Positions 3,328 through 19,769 of a stretch of 34,981 nt of DNA are shown here, one piece after another. The notes beneath the pieces are model-generated. The model saw nothing but the letters and a program-made list of their open reading frames with translations, searched no databases and was not told the origin of the DNA. The stretch lies in the NCBI GenBank assembly GCA_002841595.1, contig PHAD01000015.1, positions 1 to 34,981 of the forward strand, given 5' to 3'. Each line of letters opens with the position of its first letter. The stretch's first letter is position 1. The position numbers and the translations under genes were made by a program. The stretch comes from Firmicutes bacterium HGW-Firmicutes-12 (lineage in GTDB: Bacteria; Bacillota; Peptococcia; DRI-13; PHAD01).

Positions 3328-4440
3328 TCATAGCGACGAAATAAACATTCCCTCTTCTGCCAGAGAAGCCTTTCTTGCTGCTAAATAATAGTCATATACA
3401 GCTTTCTCATAATCCACTTGTGTTTGTTCGGAAGTTATTTTATAGCTATCAAATACTATTTTCGAAATAACACCCAGATCATATTGAAGTTTATGTGTTT
3501 CGAACTCTTTTTCCGCTATTTCATGTGCTATCCGACAATTGACGAGCGACTTCTGAGCTAGCAATAATTTTTCATATATATTTTTCACCGATAACCTCAT
3601 ACCATATACAGTATCAGCTTTAGTTAAATCTATCTGCTTAATCTCTAAATTTAGCCTCTCAACCTTATCCGAGGCTGTATATCTTTTTTCTTCAATCTCT
3701 TTTGCCTTGTCCTCTACTGTTCTGTTGAATTGCTCTATCGCCAAGGAAGCCTCTAATGCTTTGTCAAATGTATTCGTCTCACTATTATAGGTTGTAGGAG
3801 TAAAAGCAACAGGACTCAATACGAGGGGAGCCTCTATGTTTCTGCCCATGCTCCTATTAATGTTCCATCTTAATGTTTTATGGTTATCATGCAATTCCTG
3901 TAGTTTTATTTGTAAGTCTCTTACTTTCCTAACCTCTTTATCTAATGTAAACTGCGTACCCATACCTAAACTTACTTTAAGTTTTTCTATTTCTACAACT
4001 TTATTTTGAAGTTCATAGCTTAATTCTAACATCTCAATACTACTTTCCATATTTAAGATAGTGAGATATAAACTCTCCGTATTATATTCTATCTCTTTCT
4101 TAAGGTTACTTAGAATAGTTTTGCCATCTTCTCGCGCATAAACTGAAGCATCATAGGCCTTTTTGGCAACTTCCATCGATGATTTAAGATAATCTAATCC
4201 ACCTGAATTTTGCCATGCTGCCTTAGCCTGCTCATAAGATATCCATGTGTCACGTTCATTTACTCTGACTAGCTCATTATTATTTTCTTGTTGTTTCATC
4301 TCGGGGCTATTTTGGACCGCCAACCCCTTCGCTTCGCTTATTGTTACTAACTCCATATACGTTTCACCATATGTAATTACCGGGCTAAACATTAGAAGTA
4401 TTAATAGCACTATTATTGGTGCCTTATTTATTTTAAACAT
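3328..4440 (-). CDS. TolC-family (outer membrane efflux protein-like) exported protein
   Basis: The protein has 370 residues, with a signal peptide at 1-25 (IIVLLILLMFSP). Two similar halves follow, each rich in long alpha helices. The first starts with VTISEAKGLAVQNSPEMKQQ and holds a segment ending in SLGMGTQFTLDKE. The second has KLQYDLGVISKIVFDSYK and ends in YDYYLAARKASLAEEG. The 'Gxxxxxdxxxa' turn after each helical hairpin is the signature of OEP/TolC repeats. TolC proteins normally form trans-outer-membrane tunnels. Here neighbouring genes suggest a thick-walled cell, and no ABC, RND or membrane-fusion partner is adjacent, so its role is unclear. AGGAGG lies 10 nt before the ATG. It has its own sigma-A promoter. 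Confidence 0.7.
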   Translation of the reverse strand: MFKINKAPIIVLLILLMFSPVITYGETYMELVTISEAKGLAVQNSPEMKQQENNNELVRVNERDTWISYEQAKAAWQNSGGLDYLKSSMEVAKKAYDASVYAREDGKTILSNLKKEIEYNTESLYLTILNMESSIEMLELSYELQNKVVEIEKLKVSLGMGTQFTLDKEVRKVRDLQIKLQELHDNHKTLRWNINRSMGRNIEAPLVLSPVAFTPTTYNSETNTFDKALEASLAIEQFNRTVEDKAKEIEEKRYTASDKVERLNLEIKQIDLTKADTVYGMRLSVKNIYEKLLLAQKSLVNCRIAHEIAEKEFETHKLQYDLGVISKIVFDSYKITSEQTQVDYEKAVYDYYLAARKASLAEEGMFISSL

Positions 4441-4638: not shown

Positions 4639-7362
4639 TTACTGTACGTAACTTACGGATTGGGTAGCAGCATCGTAGCTAACAGTAGCTCCGAAGGCTT
4701 CGCCAACTGCACGGAAAGGTAATACAGTACGTCCATCTTTAATCATAGCAGCAACATCAGCGGTAACTGTGCTTGTTACGCCATCTTTAACTACAGTTAT
4801 GGTATTGGAACCGATAACGATAGTTACAGTCATGTCGGAACGAGTCAGAGTTACAGTTTGAGTAGCTTCGTCCCAACCTATTTCTGCGCCAAAAGCGTCA
4901 GCAACAGGGCGAACAGCTACGAAAGTACGACCATCTTGGATGAAAGGAGCTACATCAGTAACACCAGCTACTCCGTCTTTCATGAAGCCAGTAGCGCCGA
5001 TGAACATAGTAACTTGACCAGCACCTACAACAACTTTAGGAGCTCCAAACTTAAGGTCAACTGATTGTGTAAAGGTTCTTGCTGGAGTACCAGTAGTAGT
5101 TATAACTACTTGAACCTTAACATCGCCAGCTACGTTACTACTGATTTTTAAATCAGCAGCACCTGTTTTCTGCATATCTGTCAGAATAGTAGATGGTGTG
5201 CTGCTACTAACAATTGCGCCAGATGGCTTGCTGATTACATAGTAATCAACGCTGACAGCTGTAACACCAGTACCAATAGCAATTGATTTGCCTTCTACAT
5301 CAACGAGTTGCGCTTTAATTACAGCGTCATTACCTATTTGAGTTGTAGCTTCAGCAGCTGTAAGAGTTAATCCGTTAGCAATCTTATTAATTGTCATTGT
5401 TGCAGATCCTGAAAGCTTTTTGTTCTTGTCAACTGCAGTAATCACCAATGTTCCAGCATACTTCTCGTCGCCAATTGCAAAGAAGTCACCAGCACCAGAA
5501 GTAAATGCGTTATCACCAGCGCCAACGGCACTTTGGATCATACGTACATCACTAGGTGTAAATACGATGTCTGCTAAAACTTCAGCAGCTGTAAGCTCTT
5601 TAGATACGCCAGCAGCGTCTATACGCTTAATGGTAGGAACACCAGTCTTAGTGTTCACGGAAATAGCAGATTGATCATATTTTACGGACAGATCTACAGC
5701 AGTTCCCTGCTTCTTAACTTCGAAAGTGAAGGATACTACCTGACCATTATCAAAATAAGCCTTGACGGTATGGGTTCCTTCTTTGTTTATTTCTCCACCA
5801 CCAATGGTCATCTTCAAGTAGCCTTCAGCAGTGTTGATAAATGAATAATCAGCTGTAGTGTTGTTGTTGTATATTTTTTCGTCCATGTTGGAATCAGAAG
5901 GACGAACAGTTGCTTCAAGCTTGAGTCCAATATTACCAGCAGCATAATTAACTGGTGTAGTAGCAATGGTAGCTGCGCCAACAGCAACTGCCCTAGTATA
6001 TTTAATCTGATTACCGTTTGTATCGGAGAACTTAAACTTCACTGAATAAGGAGCATCTTTTGCTACTGTTTCATTTCCGCCGGAAACTAACTCTACTTTA
6101 TACAGATCGTTAGCAGCAAATATAACATTTGTTGTTACATCTTTGTCACCAGCAGCAGCTTTAACACTGTATGTGCCAGGCTTAGTAGCTGAAACTTTTA
6201 CCTTTACAACACCAGTTGCGTCAGTTGTAGCAGTGGTTTTGTTAAGATTTACCTGAGTTTTGTTAGCTGATATAGTTACTTCTTGCCCTGAAACAGGAGC
6301 ACCGTTTGAGGCTGTAACTTTGAAAGTTATTTCATAAGTATCTATACTATTACCGTTAACAGTTGCTGAATTCCAAGCTGTAGCAGCTGCGAGACCATCA
6401 CCAGCAACAGCTGAGGCATCACTAGCTACAGGAGTTCCAATAACTGCAACAGCATTAGTAGATGGAGATGTGAATGTGATATCTTTTGTTGCAGCCAGAC
6501 CACAAGTTGTTGTGGAAGCAGCGCTTGCACCAGTCAAATATGCATATACTGAAGTAGTAGCAGCAGCATCAGTTAGACCAATACCAATTTTTGCAGCACC
6601 AACTACAGAAGACTTAACTTTGAATTCTGCTTTACCAGCTGCGTCAGTTGTAACAACATAGTTAGGAGCGGCACCAGTAGGAGCTGCACCCAGGTTAGCA
6701 GTATCAGCAGAGTTTCTGAAAATGTCAGTTGTTCCACGTGATGAAGCAACTACAAGTGCTCTACCACTTACAATATTATTAGAGGCATCATAAGCATATA
6801 CTGTAAACTTGATTGTTGAAGTACCATCGCCGACAACTGAAGTCTTGTCAGTCTCGACAATAGTTGCAAATGCGTTAGCACCGCCAACAATTGTTAAGCT
6901 AGCTAAATCAGCAGCTACAGCTGTAGCTCTGAGTTTGTAAGTTCCAACTGCAGGGTTTGTAACCGCCTGCGTTATTGTGTAAGTACCAGCAGCAAGGCCG
7001 CCAGCTACTTCGGTAATAACAAGAGCACCAGCAGCTGTAGTTGCAGCAGTCGCATTACCTGCAGCTATAGCTACACCTGCAGCAGTATCAAACGAAGCTG
7101 CAGCTGCTGCAGGAAATACACCTGCTTTAAGCACGTTAGCACTGTCAGTGAGATTAATGGTAACTACATCACCACTACCAGCTGCTATCGCTGGGATAGT
7201 TACATTAATAGTGTAAGTTGCAGTTGCACCTGTCTCATTTGTAGTGCTTGTAACTGTAGCTGCTGTTGCGTCTACAGCAGCAGCAAAAGCTGCCATTGGG
7301 AGTAAAGTCATCATGAACATCATTAATGTCAAGATGGCAAATAATTTTTTAGTAGATTTCAA
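4639..7362 (-). CDS. S-layer-like surface protein with C-terminal stalk domains
   Basis: The protein has 907 residues with a signal peptide (MKSTKKLFAILTLMMFMMTL, cleavage near AFA-A). The mature part is very rich in Ala, Thr and Val with few aromatic residues, and has several Ig-like beta-sandwich segments, for example around GAPVSGQEVTISANKT and TTDATGVVKVKVSATKPGTY. The C-terminal ~130 residues carry two copper-amine-oxidase N1-like units, with DGRT at about 810 and 876, each followed by the A-F-G-A and D-x-A-T-Q pattern. These probably take the wall-anchoring place that SLH domains have elsewhere. The start is TTG (7360-7362), with AGGAGG 8 nt upstream and no alternative ATG. The consensus promoter, long leader and strong terminator suggest very high expression as the main surface-layer protein. 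Confidence 0.85.
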   Translation of the reverse strand: MKSTKKLFAILTLMMFMMTLLPMAAFAAAVDATAATVTSTTNETGATATYTINVTIPAIAAGSGDVVTINLTDSANVLKAGVFPAAAAASFDTAAGVAIAAGNATAATTAAGALVITEVAGGLAAGTYTITQAVTNPAVGTYKLRATAVAADLASLTIVGGANAFATIVETDKTSVVGDGTSTIKFTVYAYDASNNIVSGRALVVASSRGTTDIFRNSADTANLGAAPTGAAPNYVVTTDAAGKAEFKVKSSVVGAAKIGIGLTDAAATTSVYAYLTGASAASTTTCGLAATKDITFTSPSTNAVAVIGTPVASDASAVAGDGLAAATAWNSATVNGNSIDTYEITFKVTASNGAPVSGQEVTISANKTQVNLNKTTATTDATGVVKVKVSATKPGTYSVKAAAGDKDVTTNVIFAANDLYKVELVSGGNETVAKDAPYSVKFKFSDTNGNQIKYTRAVAVGAATIATTPVNYAAGNIGLKLEATVRPSDSNMDEKIYNNNTTADYSFINTAEGYLKMTIGGGEINKEGTHTVKAYFDNGQVVSFTFEVKKQGTAVDLSVKYDQSAISVNTKTGVPTIKRIDAAGVSKELTAAEVLADIVFTPSDVRMIQSAVGAGDNAFTSGAGDFFAIGDEKYAGTLVITAVDKNKKLSGSATMTINKIANGLTLTAAEATTQIGNDAVIKAQLVDVEGKSIAIGTGVTAVSVDYYVISKPSGAIVSSSTPSTILTDMQKTGAADLKISSNVAGDVKVQVVITTTGTPARTFTQSVDLKFGAPKVVVGAGQVTMFIGATGFMKDGVAGVTDVAPFIQDGRTFVAVRPVADAFGAEIGWDEATQTVTLTRSDMTVTIVIGSNTITVVKDGVTSTVTADVAAMIKDGRTVLPFRAVGEAFGATVSYDAATQSVSYVQ

Positions 7363-7645
7363 ACTATATCCCTCCTAAATTTTCAAGGTTCTGAATCAAC
7401 CGTCTTTGACAGTTGATCTTTCTACCCGGGTTTATTTTCCCGGGGGCGGGTTCCTGCCACGGAAACAGTGTTTATTCTGGATACCGGGCATTTTATTAGG
7501 AACCATTACGTCCTACTATGTATCCACTGTGAATCTAAGTGGCCGTATCCCCCCTTTCAAAAATTCACTTAAGCAATTAACCTAAAACCTAAAGGTTTAA
7601 TTTTTGACCTTTAGAAAATTTAAACAATGTAATGGCAAGTTACTA
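7363..7645 (-). promoter_or_regulatory. Long structured 5' leader of the S-layer-like mRNA
   Basis: From the predicted start near 7645 the leader is about 280 nt and has no convincing small ORF. Hairpins seen on the minus strand: an 8-bp stem 7589-7596/7607-7614; a three-way-junction-like set P1 (7543-7550/7479-7487, one bulge), P2 (7538-7542/7524-7528) and P3 (7511-7515/7497-7501); a CCCGGG hairpin (7425-7430/7439-7444); and a 10-bp stem with an AAA loop (7395-7404/7408-7417) just before the Shine-Dalgarno. Competing complements also exist: 7549-7554 with 7442-7446, 7539-7543 with 7456-7460, 7525-7530 with 7465-7470, and 7498-7504 with 7449-7455. I do not recognise a known riboswitch. Stabilisation of the mRNA or regulation are both possible. 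Confidence 0.6.
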
Positions 7646-7651
7646 TACCAC

Positions 7652-7679
7652 ATTATATCACACAAGTTATTGAAGTCAA
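7652..7679 (-). promoter_or_regulatory. Strong extended sigma-A promoter of the S-layer-like gene
   Basis: Minus strand: TTGACT (7674-7679), 16-nt spacer ending in TGA, then the perfect TATAAT (7652-7657). The TGn just before the -10 makes it an extended -10 promoter. It is the best promoter match I find in the window. The rest of the intergenic region, 7680-7852, is AT-rich and shows nothing further; no clear terminator for tagA is visible there. Confidence 0.75.
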
Positions 7680-10573: not shown

Positions 10574-11149
10574 TTAACGGAAAATGGTAACTGTCTGGTT
10601 AGCGCTGTCCCATTCGAAACTTGCCTCCATATATTGACCCACAAACCTAAGCGGTACCATGGTTCTGCCTTCAATAATGAAGGGTGGAGCATCTAGGGCT
10701 ACTTCTTTACCTCTAACCTTTGCTGTCTTCTTATCAATATACAATTCTATGGTGAGGCTATTTAATGTATATGTTACCTTGCGTGTGTTCCCATCCCACG
10801 CGAATTCTGCTCCCATGCACTCCCCGATAAAGCGAACTGGAACCATCGTTCTGTTGTTGTTGATAACGGGTGCTACATCTAGGACTGCTACGTTCCCATC
10901 AATCCAAGCCTTGGTCTGCCCGATAACCACTTTTATTTCCGTCGTCAGACTACTGCGCATTTCTCTTACTGCCCTATCCATTTCAGATATTGCTGTTTTC
11001 AGCTGGTCAATTTGCTGTTCCACGGGCTTTGTGGCAGCAGGAAGCCAGTTGTCAAAAAAATGCTTCGTCATTAGTTGTTCTTCAGCCAGCAAAGGCATGC
11101 TAAAAAGAAAAGCCATAAAAACAATTATTACAATTACGCGTTTAATCAT
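10574..11149 (-). CDS. Exported protein with two stalk (copper-amine-oxidase N1-like) units
   Basis: The protein has 191 residues, with a signal peptide at 1-22. A heptad-like helical segment (about 42-70, PVEQQIDQLKTAISEMDRAV) follows, then two stalk units: NNRTMVPVRFIGECMGA near 98-114 and EGRTMVPLRFVGQYMEA near 160-176, each followed by W-D. The coiled coil suggests it may oligomerise or stand off from the membrane. No catalytic residues are evident. The ATG at 11149 has AGGTG 5 nt upstream; an earlier ATG at 11170 lacks a site. It lies 37 nt upstream of the first LCP gene, so it is probably co-transcribed with the polymer ligases. Confidence 0.82.
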   Translation of the reverse strand: MIKRVIVIIVFMAFLFSMPLLAEEQLMTKHFFDNWLPAATKPVEQQIDQLKTAISEMDRAVREMRSSLTTEIKVVIGQTKAWIDGNVAVLDVAPVINNNRTMVPVRFIGECMGAEFAWDGNTRKVTYTLNSLTIELYIDKKTAKVRGKEVALDAPPFIIEGRTMVPLRFVGQYMEASFEWDSANQTVTIFR

Positions 11150-11205
11150 GATAGCACCTATTTTAAGCAACGTCTATTTTAACTTAACAATCACTATTCT
11201 ACACA

Positions 11206-14643: not shown

Positions 14644-14901
14644 TTAATTTTCTTGTGCTTCCTTATATTTTCGCTTTGTTGCTTCTCCACCCCGCAAATG
14701 TCTCTCCGCCTTGTTCTGCTCTAATACATATTTTACTTGTGCTGCTAATTGTTTGTTAATAACAGGTAATCGCTCAGTCATGTCCTTATGAATGGTACTT
14801 TTACTGACACCAAAAACTGTCGCTGTTTGCCTGACTGTGGCAGTCGTATCCAGCATATAATGGCAGACTTCCAGTACACGTTTTCTTATATATTCTTGCA
14901 C
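14644..14901 (-). CDS. spoIIID: Sporulation transcriptional regulator SpoIIID
   Basis: The protein has 85 residues. It is a mother-cell DNA-binding protein that represses or activates many sigma-E genes during sporulation. The helix-turn-helix TVRQTATVFGVSKSTIHKDM lies in the middle, followed by the family hallmark TERLP and then RHLRGGEATKRKY, the basic tail that contacts the minor groove. I chose the GTG at 14901: it gives the family length (80-93 aa), and GGAGG sits 9 nt upstream. The longer frame to 14967 adds 22 residues without homology. A sigma-E-like promoter precedes it. Confidence 0.93.
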   Translation of the reverse strand: MQEYIRKRVLEVCHYMLDTTATVRQTATVFGVSKSTIHKDMTERLPVINKQLAAQVKYVLEQNKAERHLRGGEATKRKYKEAQEN

Positions 14902-14935
14902 TCCGCTTCCCCTCCGCAATACATATTTTTCTCTA

Positions 14936-14965
14936 AATGTATATGAGAGGAAATGAAAAAAATGC
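14936..14965 (-). promoter_or_regulatory. Sigma-E-like promoter upstream of spoIIID
   Basis: Minus strand: GCATTTT (14959-14965; 6 of 7 to KMATATT), 15-nt spacer, TATACATT (14936-14943; 7 of 8 to CATACANT). This fits the known sigma-E control of spoIIID in Bacillus. The match is by eye. Confidence 0.42.
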
Positions 14966-14982
14966 AAGTTTGTTTATATTTC

Positions 14983-15741
14983 TTATGGCAGGTACTTAAG
15001 TGGATTTATATTTTGCTCCTTCATTATCAATCTATAATGAAGATGTGGCCCAAGCTTCACTTCATTTAAGCCAGGTTGCCCTACAACGCCTATTATCTGT
15101 CCAGCTTTTACTACATCACCCTTTTTTGTTTTAGCCTCGTCAAGATGCGAATACTCGCTCTGCCAATCATTGCCATGAGCAATAAGAATTGTTATTTTAT
15201 CACCCTTAGAGCTTTTAATATTAACTACCTGTCCCCCTAATGAGGCAATGACCTCATCACCAACCTCCCCTTTGATATCGATACCGTCATGATAACGGTA
15301 ATCATCAAAGGTTTCCGAATAAACGAGTCCCATTTCCTGAATTACTTCACCTTTTAGTGGCCAGATTATTTGCTCGATGTTTTGTACGATATTTTCTTTT
15401 GCTTGTTCCTCTACAGGTACTGTAGTTGCAGGAATATCTTCCTCGAGGTCAACATCTTGATCTATGTTTTCTTCTTCTACATAAGCTAATTCATCTATAT
15501 AAGTTTCTTTATCAAGATTAGTTACATCCTCTGTATATTTTCCCTCATCTATATATGCTAATCGATCTGTGTAAGCAAATTTATCTTCATGCATTACCTC
15601 TTCTACAATTTGCGGGCTTGGGCTTTTTAGCATTGGAACTCCAAGTGTGAATACCAGTATTATAACTGCCGCATATATTCCTAGTATTCTTATATTTATA
15701 CCTTTATTCTTAATAATTCTTATAATTCTTTCTCTCAACAT
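14983..15741 (-). CDS. spoIIQ: SpoIIQ-like M23 (LytM) domain protein
   Basis: The protein has 252 residues: a short basic cytoplasmic end, one membrane helix (about 18-36), an acidic linker rich in Asp, Glu and Tyr (50-115), and a LytM domain (125-252). SpoIIQ is made in the forespore and binds SpoIIIAH across the intermembrane space during engulfment. Metal-site residues look complete: His151 and Asp155 (HDGID), His199 (SHL), His233 and His235 (HLH). Bacillus SpoIIQ is degenerate here, whereas clostridial forms can keep the zinc site, so endopeptidase activity is possible. GAGGTGG lies 6 nt before the ATG. Position after spoIID supports the assignment. Confidence 0.88.
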   Translation of the reverse strand: MLRERIIRIIKNKGINIRILGIYAAVIILVFTLGVPMLKSPSPQIVEEVMHEDKFAYTDRLAYIDEGKYTEDVTNLDKETYIDELAYVEEENIDQDVDLEEDIPATTVPVEEQAKENIVQNIEQIIWPLKGEVIQEMGLVYSETFDDYRYHDGIDIKGEVGDEVIASLGGQVVNIKSSKGDKITILIAHGNDWQSEYSHLDEAKTKKGDVVKAGQIIGVVGQPGLNEVKLGPHLHYRLIMKEQNINPLKYLP

Positions 15742-15747
15742 GATACA

Positions 15748-15810
15748 CCACCTCGGAAATAGTATTACCAGATTATTGGATCATTAATCTAGCTACTTTT
15801 TACGAGGTGG
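15748..15810 (-). promoter_or_regulatory. Shine-Dalgarno and complementary upstream arm at spoIIQ
   Basis: The spoIIQ Shine-Dalgarno CGAGGTGG (15748-15755) is perfectly complementary over 8 bp to CCACCTCG (15803-15810), which lies 8 nt past the spoIID stop codon. The loop would be 47 nt and holds the forespore-type promoter. A transcript reading through from spoIID could mask the site; one started at the internal promoter could not. Confidence 0.5.
15760..15789 (-). promoter_or_regulatory. Sigma-F/sigma-G-like promoter of spoIIQ
   Basis: Minus strand: GATTA (15785-15789; 4 of 5 to GYWTA), 15-nt spacer, GGTAATACTA (15760-15769; 10 of 10 to GGNRANAHTR). The predicted start is in or just before the Shine-Dalgarno, giving a very short leader. 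Bacillus spoIIQ is sigma-F dependent. Confidence 0.5.
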
Positions 15811-15818
15811 CTTTAAGT

Positions 15819-16835
15819 TTATTCTCTCCCTTTAACTAAGGCTAGATTCACGCCTTGGTAATAATGCTTCAGAATGCCCCCGTAATCCTTACCTTCCTTA
15901 GCTAAGGAGGCTGCCCCATACTGACACATTCCTACTCCATGACCGTAGCCTCGGCTAATAAACTTTATCTCATCTTTTTCTATTACCCAATTAAGTATGG
16001 TGGAAGGCAGACTCAATTTACTACGCAATTCAGCTCCGCTTACTTCCTGCCCAGAAACCAGTAGTGTTGTGATGCGGCCAGAGGCAGTTTTCTCTAGAAT
16101 TTTTATTATCCTTTGGTTTGATGAGGTGTGACTAACCGCGCGTGACTGTATACCCATGAGAGCGTTAAGCTTGCTTAATTTGAATATGTTTATTGCTTCT
16201 TTATTTCCCTCAGGATGATTGTTGCAGGGCACACTTCTCAAGTATGGTATCTCATATTTCCAGACGTTCTCGGAGTCTTCGGTTCCACAACCTCCACAGG
16301 AGGAGTGGTAGACAGGATCAATTAGATTCCCTTCATATAGTAGAACTTCTCCTTTTGTCTCAGAGACGGCTTGGGTGATCTTATTTTTATACGTTAGATA
16401 ACTTCTTTTGCACCAACGACTTTTCATTTCCTCCACACTAATATAGGCTTGGTTAATCGCAGAATCGGGACTAAGAACCGCTTTATTGTTAATTCTCGTT
16501 ATACGCGGGTCGGGTATCTGTATGCGTTTTACCGCGTATGTCCTGGCAGCTACAGCTTGGGCTTTTAAGGCCTCTAGAGGAAAAGATGCAGGCATTTCGG
16601 CAGCCACCACACCAACCACATATTCTTCTAGACCTAGTTCAATTACTTTTCCGCTCTCATGCAACAGTAATTGAACTCTAATTGTATCCCCTTCAATCAA
16701 CATTTCATGAGTTTCTTCCGTAAAGATGTATAGCGCTATTGGTATGAGTATTATCACTATTAATAATAGAAGAATACATTTACTTAGTAGCCTATATTTT
16801 CTTTTCCTTCTCCAGATGTACAACGACACCAGCAT
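15819..16835 (-). CDS. spoIID: Stage II sporulation protein D (lytic transglycosylase)
   Basis: The protein has 338 residues. It is a mother-cell membrane enzyme that cuts glycan strands during engulfment with SpoIIM and SpoIIP. A membrane helix lies near 20-37. The catalytic segment EEYVVGVVAAEMPASF followed by EALKAQAVAARTYA holds the active-site Glu80. The zinc-type cysteines are in SSCGGCGTED, and RGYGHGVGMCQYGA is near the C-terminus. The start is uncertain: AAGGTGG is only 3 nt before the ATG at 16835 but 9 nt before an in-frame GTG at 16829, and a TTG at 16838 is also open. It lies between murA and spoIIQ, as in Bacillus. Confidence 0.93.
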   Translation of the reverse strand: MLVSLYIWRRKRKYRLLSKCILLLLIVIILIPIALYIFTEETHEMLIEGDTIRVQLLLHESGKVIELGLEEYVVGVVAAEMPASFPLEALKAQAVAARTYAVKRIQIPDPRITRINNKAVLSPDSAINQAYISVEEMKSRWCKRSYLTYKNKITQAVSETKGEVLLYEGNLIDPVYHSSCGGCGTEDSENVWKYEIPYLRSVPCNNHPEGNKEAINIFKLSKLNALMGIQSRAVSHTSSNQRIIKILEKTASGRITTLLVSGQEVSGAELRSKLSLPSTILNWVIEKDEIKFISRGYGHGVGMCQYGAASLAKEGKDYGGILKHYYQGVNLALVKGRE

Positions 16836-16924
16836 CAACCACCTTAGTATTATCTAATCAGACTAATACTTATGCCTTTGTCGCCTCTTTTATGATTGTA
16901 CATATTTCAATTAAAGTATAATGT

Positions 16925-16952
16925 AAAAAAGCGCCGGTTAACCAGCGCTTTT
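16925..16952 (-). terminator. Terminator of murA
   Basis: On the minus strand AAAAGCGCTGG and CCGGCGCTTTT form an 11-bp stem (one G-U pair) with a TTAA loop, then a T-run. It begins right after the murA stop codon and separates murA from spoIID. Confidence 0.85.
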
Positions 16953-16953
16953 C

Positions 16954-18204
16954 TTAACTCCTACTAATGTTAGCTCCAACAGAGCGAAACTTGTCTACAA
17001 TACGATCATATCCTCTATCTATGTGATAAATATTGCCAATCTCCGTTACCCCTTCAGCAGCTAATCCTGCAATAATGAGAGCCGCACCTGCTCTAAGATC
17101 TGACGCTCTGACTAAAGCCCCGGTTAGTCGGTTCATTCCTTCAACTACCGCGCTACGTCCTTCAATCTTAATATCTGCACCCATCCTGCGCAGTTCTTCT
17201 GCATGCATAAATCTGTTTTCAAAGACCGTTTCAGTTAGGACACTTGTCCCCTGGACTACTGTAAGTAAAGACATAAATTGCGCCTGCATATCCGTAGGAA
17301 ACCCTGGGTAGGGAAGAGTCTTAATATCTACAGCCTTAAGCGGGTTACTAGCTCTGATATACAAACCATTTCCGACTTCTTCTATTTCTACCCCAATTTC
17401 AATCAGCTTGGCAATGACAGGTTTCAAATGGTCGGCAATAACGTTTTCAAGCATAAGTTCTCCACCAGTTATCGCTGCTGCTACCATAAAGCTTCCTGCC
17501 TCAATCCTGTCTGGGATAATTGTGTGTGTTGTAGAGCCAAGGTTCTTGACGCCCTCTATTTTGACGATCTTTGTTCCTGCTCCCTTAATACGTCCACCCA
17601 TACTATTGATAAAATTTGCTAGATCAACTATTTCCGGTTCCTCTGCTGCATTTTCAATGACTGTTACGCCATGGGCTAAAGAACCCGTCATTATAATGTT
17701 CTCAGTAGCTCCTACACTAGGGTAGTCTAAATAAATCCTAGCTCCAGTTAAGCGTGGAGCTTCGGCAATAATATAACCATGCTCCAGTTTAATTCTGGCT
17801 CCCATCGCCTCAAAACCTTTTAAATGAAGATCAATTGGGCGCGTTCCTATTGCACAGCCACCGGGCATAGATATTTTTGCTTTACCAAGCCTAGCTAGTA
17901 AAGGTCCCATGACTAAATTTGATGCTCTCATTTTACTAACATATTCATATGATGCTTCAAATTTATTTATCTTATTACAGTTGATGTCCAAGGTATGCGC
18001 GTCTATTATTTTAATTTTGGCGCCTACTTCTCCGAGTACATCACAGATAGTTTCAACATCAGTTAACCTAGGTACATCCTGAATACGACAAGCTCCATCT
18101 GATAGCAAAGAGGCCACAATTACTGGTAATACAGCGTTTTTTGCACCGCTTACTGTGATTGTTCCTTTTAATTGCTTACCGCCTTGTACAATTATTTTTT
18201 CCAA
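16954..18204 (-). CDS. murA: UDP-N-acetylglucosamine 1-carboxyvinyltransferase
   Basis: The protein has 416 residues, the normal length. It transfers enolpyruvate from PEP to UDP-GlcNAc, the first committed step of peptidoglycan synthesis in the cytoplasm. The catalytic loop [16 protein letters not shown] has Cys117, the residue attacked by fosfomycin. Lys22-Asn23 (SGAKNAVLP) are the conserved substrate-site pair. Also seen are [11 protein letters not shown] and [16 protein letters not shown]. The start is TTG (18202-18204) with AGGA 7 nt upstream; it gives the normal MurA N-terminus. It lies between ywmB and spoIID as in Bacillus (murAA) and has its own candidate promoter and a terminator. 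Confidence 0.96.
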
Positions 18205-18318
18205 TTATTTTTCCTGAATGACAAAACCGGTGGATACACTCCCTCATGGTTTTGCTTGCAGGCCCCCCCTTCTTATGCTTTTTTTCTATCTTTTTAAAAT
18301 GTGCTGTATTCATATCGT

Positions 18319-18327
18319 ATTATAACA
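18319..18327 (-). promoter_or_regulatory. Candidate extended -10 promoter of murA
   Basis: Minus strand TGT followed by TATAAT (18319-18324), directly past the ywmB stop. The -35 is weak. The same extended -10 string occurs before tagA. Between it and murA, CAAAACC and GGTTTTG can form a 7-bp stem in the leader. Confidence 0.4.
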
Positions 18328-18336
18328 TTATTTCTT

Positions 18337-19104
18337 TTAATAGTCCTGATAAATCACGGGGACACCTACATAAATATGTGTTGTATTCTCAAGCTCATCT
18401 ATACTAAAAGCAATATTTAGATTAATTTTCTTGCCTTGAATATACAAATACTGCTTTCCTTCACTCGTATAAAAGCATAGACTACTGTATCTATCCTGTA
18501 CAATACCTTCTATATACTCGGCATTTACGACTTTAGCTAAGTCTTTGATCCTGGCATTTCTGATTTTGGTAGTTGTCGTACCTGGATTCTCACCTTTAAA
18601 GGTTATACCTATTGGTTCAGTAAACCCAATATCTCTTAGTAATATGATCAAATCATTATATGCCTGCTGCGCGGTCAAGGGATCATCTGATGTAAATAGT
18701 GTTGCAATATAGGTACTGCCTTCCCCTTTGGCAGGATCGGGGATAGATTGTATTGAAAGTTGCGCATTATTACCGTTCTCGTTTTCGGCTATTATAGAGA
18801 GGCTCTTGATCCCATCATTTCTTAATTGGAAAACGGGCTTCTTCAGTGCGTCTATCCGGAGCGCCTGGGCCAATAACTGATAGGTACTATTAATCTCATC
18901 TTCCGTCATATTTCTATTGCTAATTTGTCCCCATGCCTGTAATTTTATTTCTTTTATATCTGTACCGGCAAGAGAAAATACTTTCCAGGCGAGCTCATAA
19001 TTATTTAGAATTGATATATGGTCATTATATAACGCCTGGCTAGGTAAGGCTATCAACAATAACAGGAATAGACTAACAAAGACAATTTGCACGGGCAATC
19101 TCAT
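18337..19104 (-). CDS. ywmB: YwmB-family exported protein
   Basis: The protein has 255 residues, with a signal peptide or anchor at 1-25 (IVFVSLFLLLLIALPSQA). The rest is a mixed alpha/beta domain with the features of the YwmB family (Pfam PF08680, sometimes labelled TATA-box-binding-like for its fold): an early ELAWKVFSLAGTDIKEIKLQ, WGQISNRNMTEDEI, a repeated-fold second half starting near GFTEPIGITFKG, and a final IYVGVPVIYQDY. The function is unknown. Its place between the ATP synthase operon and murA is the same as in Bacillus. GAGGAGA precedes the ATG. Confidence 0.85.
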   Translation of the reverse strand: MRLPVQIVFVSLFLLLLIALPSQALYNDHISILNNYELAWKVFSLAGTDIKEIKLQAWGQISNRNMTEDEINSTYQLLAQALRIDALKKPVFQLRNDGIKSLSIIAENENGNNAQLSIQSIPDPAKGEGSTYIATLFTSDDPLTAQQAYNDLIILLRDIGFTEPIGITFKGENPGTTTTKIRNARIKDLAKVVNAEYIEGIVQDRYSSLCFYTSEGKQYLYIQGKKINLNIAFSIDELENTTHIYVGVPVIYQDY

Positions 19105-19219
19105 GTTCTTCTCTCCTCATCTGTTTTTAGTATTATTATTGCCCTGCTAATTCCATTTTATTCCGAAAATTTCATATTCCACAGATAATAATGATAATAA
19201 TTAATAATATAGGGAATAA

Positions 19220-19265
19220 AAAACAGATAAACCGCAGTTAAATTTAACTGCGGTTTATCTGTTTT
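19220..19265 (-). terminator. 46-bp perfect palindrome, terminator of the ATP synthase operon
   Basis: Arms of 23 bp (19220-19242 and 19243-19265) match without a mismatch, with no unpaired centre. On the minus strand they are followed by a T-run. It lies about 100 nt past the atpC stop. The T4 on the other strand could also stop plus-strand transcription. The rest of 19105-19361 is AT-rich; I see only a small 6-bp hairpin (ATTGCT/AGCAAT) near 19272-19288. Confidence 0.85.
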
Positions 19266-19361
19266 AGGTTAATTGCTGTAAAAGCAATCGTTTAAAATAC
19301 TTCGCCACGATTTATTATAATCCTGCTACTTAAGGACTTAATTTTTTGCTAATAGCGAAAT

Positions 19362-19769
19362 TTACTTAGAGTAATCTGTTACTTGCAAACGGGCAAGGGC
19401 TCTTTTCAGGGCTAATTCAGCACGTTGGACGTCAAGACCACTCGGTCTCTCCTTCAGTCTCTGTGCCGCTCTTCCCTTGGCTGCTTGTGCCCTCTCCCTG
19501 TCAATCTCATTCGCTTTTTCAGCGCAATCAGCTAGCAGCGTTACCCTGTCGGGTCCTATTTCCATGAATCCCCCGCTGATTGAAAGAAAGTTAAGCTTCC
19601 CGTCACTGCGATACTTGACTGCACCAGGTAAAAGCCCCAAAATCATTGGTGCATGATTTGGCAATACACCTAAATACCCTTCAACTGCAGGTACAATAAG
19701 TGACGCTATTTCGGTGCTTAACAGGGTACGGTCAGGAGTTACGACATCAAGTTTGAGGGATTTAGCCAT
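19362..19769 (-). CDS. atpC: ATP synthase F1 subunit epsilon
   Basis: The protein has 135 residues. The N-terminal beta-sandwich has LKLDVVTPDRTLLSTEIASL and VEGYLGVLPNHAPMILGLLP; the C-terminal part is a helical hairpin (NEIDRERAQAAKGRAAQRL and LKRALARLQV). It links the gamma shaft to the c ring and, in bacteria, restrains ATP hydrolysis through its C-terminal helices. GGAGGGG precedes the ATG, with a gap of only 3 nt after atpD. It is the last gene of the operon, followed by the palindromic terminator. Confidence 0.96.
   Translation of the reverse strand: MAKSLKLDVVTPDRTLLSTEIASLIVPAVEGYLGVLPNHAPMILGLLPGAVKYRSDGKLNFLSISGGFMEIGPDRVTLLADCAEKANEIDRERAQAAKGRAAQRLKERPSGLDVQRAELALKRALARLQVTDYSK

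Follow-up and report, generated by a model that had tools for sequence, protein, structure and literature searches.

The S-layer gene and its leader

S-layer proteins commonly rank among a cell's most abundant proteins, and the working of their long leaders is poorly known. The DNA studied here is a stretch of 34,981 nt from Firmicutes bacterium HGW-Firmicutes-12 (contig PHAD01000015.1), referred to below as the window. It carries an S-layer-type surface protein gene with its leader and, further along, atpC followed by a predicted small RNA (sRNA) gene (Table 1). Directly downstream of the S-layer gene, positions 3328-4440 (minus strand) encode a protein with an OEP (outer membrane efflux protein, TolC-type) domain, which is unusual if the host is single-membraned. 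Two more Cu_amine_oxidN1 proteins are encoded near the S-layer gene, at 1757-2314 and 10574-11170 (minus strand), and are possibly accessory surface proteins that share the domain.

Table 1. Features of the S-layer leader and the sRNA locus, in window coordinates.
Feature	Positions	Strand	Sequence or remarks
S-layer-type surface protein gene	4639..7362	-	907 aa; signal peptide, Big_1 domains, C-terminal Cu_amine_oxidN1
Start codon of the S-layer gene	7362-7360	-	TTG
Shine-Dalgarno of the S-layer gene	7368..7376	-	AGGAGGGAT; context invariant in alignment of nine leaders
Hairpin B	7395..7418	-	GATCAACTGTC..GACGGTTGATT; two-sided changes at five pairs (nine leaders)
Hairpin A	7425..7444	-	CCCGGG..CCCGGG; most leaders fold a hairpin there, with differing sequences
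Conserved helix, 3' arm	7449..7454	-	GGAACC; inner stem between the arms varies in sequence
Conserved helix, 5' arm	7499..7504	-	GGTTCC; pairs with 7454-7449 in 9/9 leaders
Extended Shine-Dalgarno-like element (block ii)	7547..7558	-	GAAAGGGGGGAT; conserved in 22 leaders
Predicted sRNA target site (block i)	7572..7588	-	GTTTTAGGTTAATTGCT; exact antisense of the sRNA
5' hairpin	7589..7614	-	CTAAAGGT..ACCTTTAG; immediately upstream of the sRNA site
Leader promoter	7652..7679	-	TTGACT, 16 nt, TATAAT preceded by TG; 11/12 consensus match
sRNA gene, previously undescribed	19330-19215	-	about 80 nt; just after atpC
Predicted sRNA	19216..19293	-	about 75-80 nt; 5' hairpin ATTGCT..AGCAAT, open seed TAACCTAAA, strong terminator; 5' end predicted
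sRNA antisense segment	19261..19277	-	AGCAATTAACCTAAAAC; complementary to 7588-7572
Sigma-H-like sRNA promoter	19301..19327	-	AGCAGGA, 14 nt, GGCGAA; conserved across families
atpC (ATP synthase epsilon)	19362..19769	-	NCBIfam TIGR01216; the sRNA follows directly in nearly all genomes examined

Relatives of the leader DNA were found throughout the order, most of them preceded by TTGACTT..TGTGATATAATG. With a predicted RNA start near position 7645, the leader would be about 285 nt long. The strongest conservation in the leader alignments lay in the blocks TTTAGGTTAATTGCT and GAAAGGGGGGATnCGGCCAC, and TTTAGGTTAATTGCT was invariant in all nine aligned leaders of the order. Blocks i and ii were both kept in 22 leaders, with a gap of 11 to 16 nt between them, and the true ribosome-binding site (RBS) lay a further 73 to 196 nt downstream of block ii, behind hairpins. 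In families elsewhere in the phylum, the sequence from the blocks to the RBS was wholly different, and both blocks persisted. Most leaders of the order, and those of family f49, have the 5' hairpin; some (G018) lack it.

The original prediction had placed an unrecognised structured RNA at 7442-7554, with two competing sets of helices, some forming a pseudoknot. The leader as a whole (238 nt) was clearly structured, with a z-score of -2.96 (none of 200 shuffles as good), while the 113-nt stretch alone was only marginally better than its shuffles (z -1.76; 10 of the 200 folded as well), and the most conserved blocks sit at or beyond the 5' edge of that stretch. The seven proposed helices do exist as complementary strands in the window (P1 with seven of eight pairs in register). 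Across nine leaders of the order, however, the first set (P1, P2 and P3) was paired in 52% of cells, against 49% in shuffles, and three helices of the second set were likewise not conserved (GGGGG/CCCCC 67%, GCCAC/GTGGC 58% and ACAGTG/CACTGT 52% of cells). The remaining helix, GGTTCCT/AGGAACC, formed six pairs (GGTTCC/GGAACC) in nine of nine leaders. Individual folds of most leaders of the order showed this stem with a varying inner stem, followed by two hairpins, and a check for compensatory changes in homologous leaders found covariation in hairpin B and none in the competing sets.

As had been predicted, the leader matches no known class: a search of Rfam for riboswitches and sRNAs yielded nothing that reached the gathering score, and nothing above chance level at relaxed thresholds. 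A riboswitch-like switch is unsupported because its mutually exclusive helices neither covaried nor were conserved in the nine leaders. What stood of the original prediction is an undescribed, structured regulatory leader of an S-layer-type gene. Its conserved parts, as judged from these comparisons, are an extended Shine-Dalgarno-like element and a predicted site for sRNA binding; the hairpins that separate these from the RBS are of an ordinary kind.

A predicted sRNA gene after atpC and its pairing with the leader

Block i has an inverted copy at a distance of 11.7 kb, in the interval separating atpC from the gene that follows. This second copy lies within the predicted sRNA, upstream of which AGGA and GAA were invariant in an alignment of 14 genomes. 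Sigma-H promoters have a consensus of the type RNAGGAWWW / RNNGAAT, and the sRNA promoter likewise combines an AGGA -35 box and a GAA(T) -10 box at fixed spacing, which is 14 nt in the window. In the same 14-genome alignment, eight pairs of the terminator hairpin were altered on both sides. The sequence thus has the promoter and intrinsic terminator of a separate unit, as for a trans-acting sRNA, from which the transcript is predicted. A search of the literature found neither an sRNA located behind atpC nor one acting on S-layer leaders in these bacteria.

Covariance models (R1 and R3) built from sRNA alignments detected the gene in 16 of 46 genomes of the class and, beyond it, in 14 genomes from five families (f44, f45, f49, f53 and f58), where it also followed atpC. 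In most genomes the atpC stop codon lay 71 to 132 nt upstream of the seed. The named relatives include Peptococcaceae bacterium UBA5318, UBA5356 and UBA3933, Clostridiales bacterium DTU073 and Clostridia bacterium SV3-B14.1. R3 matches in family f22 (G055, G139 and G297) were excluded, the two that were inspected (G055 and G139) lacking the seed. Model matches on the opposite strand at sRNA loci reflected the palindromic terminator, and pattern matches in Acetobacter were taken as chance.

The antisense match between sRNA and leader in the window is perfect over 17 nt. A 16-nt block of it has exactly two copies in the host's 2.78-Mb genome, both at these loci, and a pattern search of that genome found no other site that was exact or carried one mismatch. 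When sRNA and leader were lined up genome by genome in 21 genomes of 12 families, a long duplex of about 14 to 19 bp was present in all 21, with a single internal mismatch (G119). Counted as a structure, 88.5% of cells were paired and 22 cells were altered on both sides, in genomes that are related, so that these counts are not independent events. The covariation score was 0.164, against 0.084 in shuffles, and neither the percentage nor the score was reached by any of 500 shuffles; slid registers gave at most 55% pairing. Of the ten cells in the core that were not Watson-Crick pairs, nine were G-U and one was a mismatch.

The two sides changed together. In G118 (f44) and G161 (f53) the sRNA has CCAAA and the leader TTTGG, and in G119 (f45) CCAAA faces TCTGG, while CCTAA is matched with TTAGG elsewhere, including sister genera (G154 of f44; G078 and G155 of f45). 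The far end of the duplex varies by clade with pairing retained, as in CCTAAAAC/GTTTTAGG of the window and CCTAAGGGCA/TGCCTTTAGG of G155. Cognate sRNA-leader pairs were predicted to bind better than swapped pairs: sRNAs with CCAAA gave -24.6 to -30.5 kcal/mol with their own leaders and -18.8 kcal/mol on average with TTAGG leaders. Complementarity is thus kept by compensatory change, as is required of a trans-acting sRNA. On this comparative evidence, the predicted sRNA and its leader site are kept as a matching pair, changes in one being compensated in the other, in several families of the phylum.

Co-occurrence of the two parts and the genes they accompany

Among the 46 genomes of the class, 12 had both the sRNA and the site, 27 had neither, four had the sRNA only and three the site only (Fisher p 1.5e-5, ignoring relatedness). 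A sample outside the class contained nine genomes with both, five with the sRNA only, one with the site only and the others with neither (Fisher p 4e-14, ignoring relatedness). The sRNA was found with no recognised leader in G020, G022, G031, G038, G077, G086, G091, G126 and G129, and the site with no sRNA in G012, G025, G033 and G133, some of these genomes being incomplete; in G012 the site is partly gone. Four genomes with an sRNA for which the search gave no site-bearing S-layer leader (G038, L044; G031, L045; G091, L159; G129, L160) may have another target. In family f7, the covariance search found no sRNA, and the S-layer leaders (G007 and G023) lack the site and keep the Shine-Dalgarno-like element with GGCCA.

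The target was always an S-layer-type gene, and its protein changed: the domains were Big_1 and Cu_amine_oxidN1 in the class and SLH in f44, f45, f49 and f53. Because the target protein differs by clade, the RNA module appears to be attached to the S-layer-type gene and not to one protein family. We consider it fairly likely that a hitherto undescribed sigma-H sRNA at the end of the atp operon serves, in several families, as the dedicated regulator of the S-layer gene, whatever protein that gene encodes, through a module of sRNA site and stabilising element retained even when an unrelated S-layer protein has taken over.

Proposed mechanism and alternatives

Against the anti-Shine-Dalgarno tail typical of Firmicutes (used in place of the genome's own 16S sequence), the Shine-Dalgarno-like element of the window gave -16.8 kcal/mol, compared with -12.3 kcal/mol for the RBS. 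With the same typical tail, GAAAGGGGGGAT and its variants GAAAGGAGTGAT and GAAGGGAGGGAT gave -14.4 to -17.4 kcal/mol and surpassed the leader's own RBS in 22 of 22 leaders. A value of -16.2 was reached by 12 of the 34,966 16-nt windows of the region. In 16 of the 22 leaders there was no ATG, GTG or TTG within reach behind the element. An element resembling a Shine-Dalgarno sequence, complementary to the 16S 3' end (as represented by the Firmicutes-type tail) and devoid of a translation start is what defines a STAB-SD, and we take the element to be a putative STAB-SD or 30S standby site. In cry3A mRNA, 30S binding to the STAB-SD blocks RNase J1 (PMC4113751). The cry3A element likewise lies in a 5' UTR, matches the 16S 3' end and has no translation start (PMC4113751); the present one differs in its fixed spacing to an sRNA site, and its stabilising effect is putative. 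The likeness suggests that S-layer mRNAs may carry a ribosome-binding stabiliser such as that of cry3A mRNA.

Sequence comparison establishes both elements, their co-conservation, the compensated pairing, the constant spacing and the link to S-layer-type genes. We infer transcription by sigma-H, 30S binding at the element and an effect on mRNA lifetime. In the mechanism proposed here, a small trans-acting RNA would be made just after atpC from its own sigma-H-type (transition-phase) promoter and would pair over about 14 to 19 bp with the S-layer leader, 11 to 16 nt upstream of GAAAGGGGGGAT. A 30S subunit would bind the Shine-Dalgarno-like element, and pairing would act on mRNA lifetime through this adjacent site. 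The leader is very probably the receiving half of an RNA regulator in two parts, in which a sigma-H sRNA acting beside a 30S-binding stabiliser would set the stability of the S-layer mRNA. The pair probably controls the amount of surface coat made. Such a regulator, concrete, testable and conserved in several families, would couple the making of the coat to the onset of stationary phase or sporulation, and the natural compensatory mutations point to a way of testing it.

In computed ensembles, binding of the site neither opened nor closed the RBS or the Shine-Dalgarno-like element consistently. Since accessibility was not consistently changed, the effect cannot be read off the structure, and unmasking of the RBS by the sRNA was rejected on the same inconsistent pairing probabilities. 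Pairing of GGTTAATT with an RBS-side GGGAATTAACC is possible in f9/f11 and is not general; leaders of these families (L014, L017 and L020) carry a second, internal GGGGGATT block and, on the RBS side, a stretch like GGGAATTAACC with which the sRNA site could pair.

With the sign of regulation close to even, the balance tips slightly towards protection over repression, since the duplex is expected to stop a few nucleotides outside the area that a bound 30S subunit covers, and not on it. Repression by the same RNA pair is a realistic possibility, somewhat short of an even chance: the sRNA would bar the 30S subunit or recruit RNase III/J and so end a very stable S-layer mRNA at entry into stationary phase. 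The duplex is long and often perfect, the element is strong, the RBS is partly hidden (unpaired 0.13 to 0.66 in the order), and sigma-H activity would coincide with the time at which S-layer synthesis should slow. Against this, the site never overlaps the element, and the gap between them is conserved. The S-layer leaders of G002 (L006) and of family f49 (L118, L119 and L150), moreover, have a sigma-H-like promoter of the type AGCAGG..GTCGAA in place of TTGACT/TATAAT, so that both RNAs would be made together there.

It is improbable that GAAAGGGGGGAT is instead the RBS of a short leader ORF and not a stabiliser. A start codon and short ORF do follow it in G001, G029, G033, G154, G155 and G161; in the other 16 leaders no start codon is within reach, and the base following GAT varies freely. 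A leader ORF was rejected as the start codons are not conserved.

The shared block might, with very low probability, be a DNA site for one transcription factor, present at two loci in opposite orientations, where concerted change could mimic covariation. Yet the deviations between copies are nearly all compatible with G-U pairing, which is not predicted for a DNA site; one copy of the block is internal to a transcript that ends in a terminator, and the other, in the leader, follows the promoter and keeps a fixed distance to the Shine-Dalgarno-like element; and its orientation is always antisense, with f7 lacking both copies. The cis-acting leader of the original prediction, toggling between two helix sets, is hardly credible, for all that the leader is structured and one helix conserved, given the lack of conservation of the other six helices, the absence of an Rfam match and the total divergence between the blocks and the RBS in clades that keep site and element.

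The proposed regulator has partial counterparts. In Escherichia coli, IstR-1 represses tisB at a ribosome standby site that likewise lies upstream of, and far from, a structured RBS; the organism and the genes differ, and in the S-layer leader the sRNA site lies beside the element and not on it. The Bacillus subtilis sRNA RoxS shields yflS mRNA from RNase J1 (PMC5419742), and is likewise a Firmicute trans-acting sRNA on an mRNA 5' region that offers a route to stabilisation against this nuclease. The two sRNAs are unrelated in sequence: RoxS binds at the 5' end, is under Rex control and has a C-rich seed, whereas the site described here is some 60 to 100 nt from the predicted 5' end and the present sRNA has a sigma-H-like promoter and an A/T-rich seed. 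SpoY and SpoX of Clostridioides difficile are also clostridial sRNAs tied to sporulation entry; unlike the present pair, they are Hfq-associated and act on spo0A, and the study on them does not describe S-layer control (PMC10267692).

Beyond the sRNA gene of the window, positions 14644-19104 (minus strand) hold a sporulation and cell-wall run comprising a YwmB-like ORF, murA, spoIID, a SpoIIQ-like M23 peptidase and spoIIID, which might also receive readthrough from the sRNA promoter.
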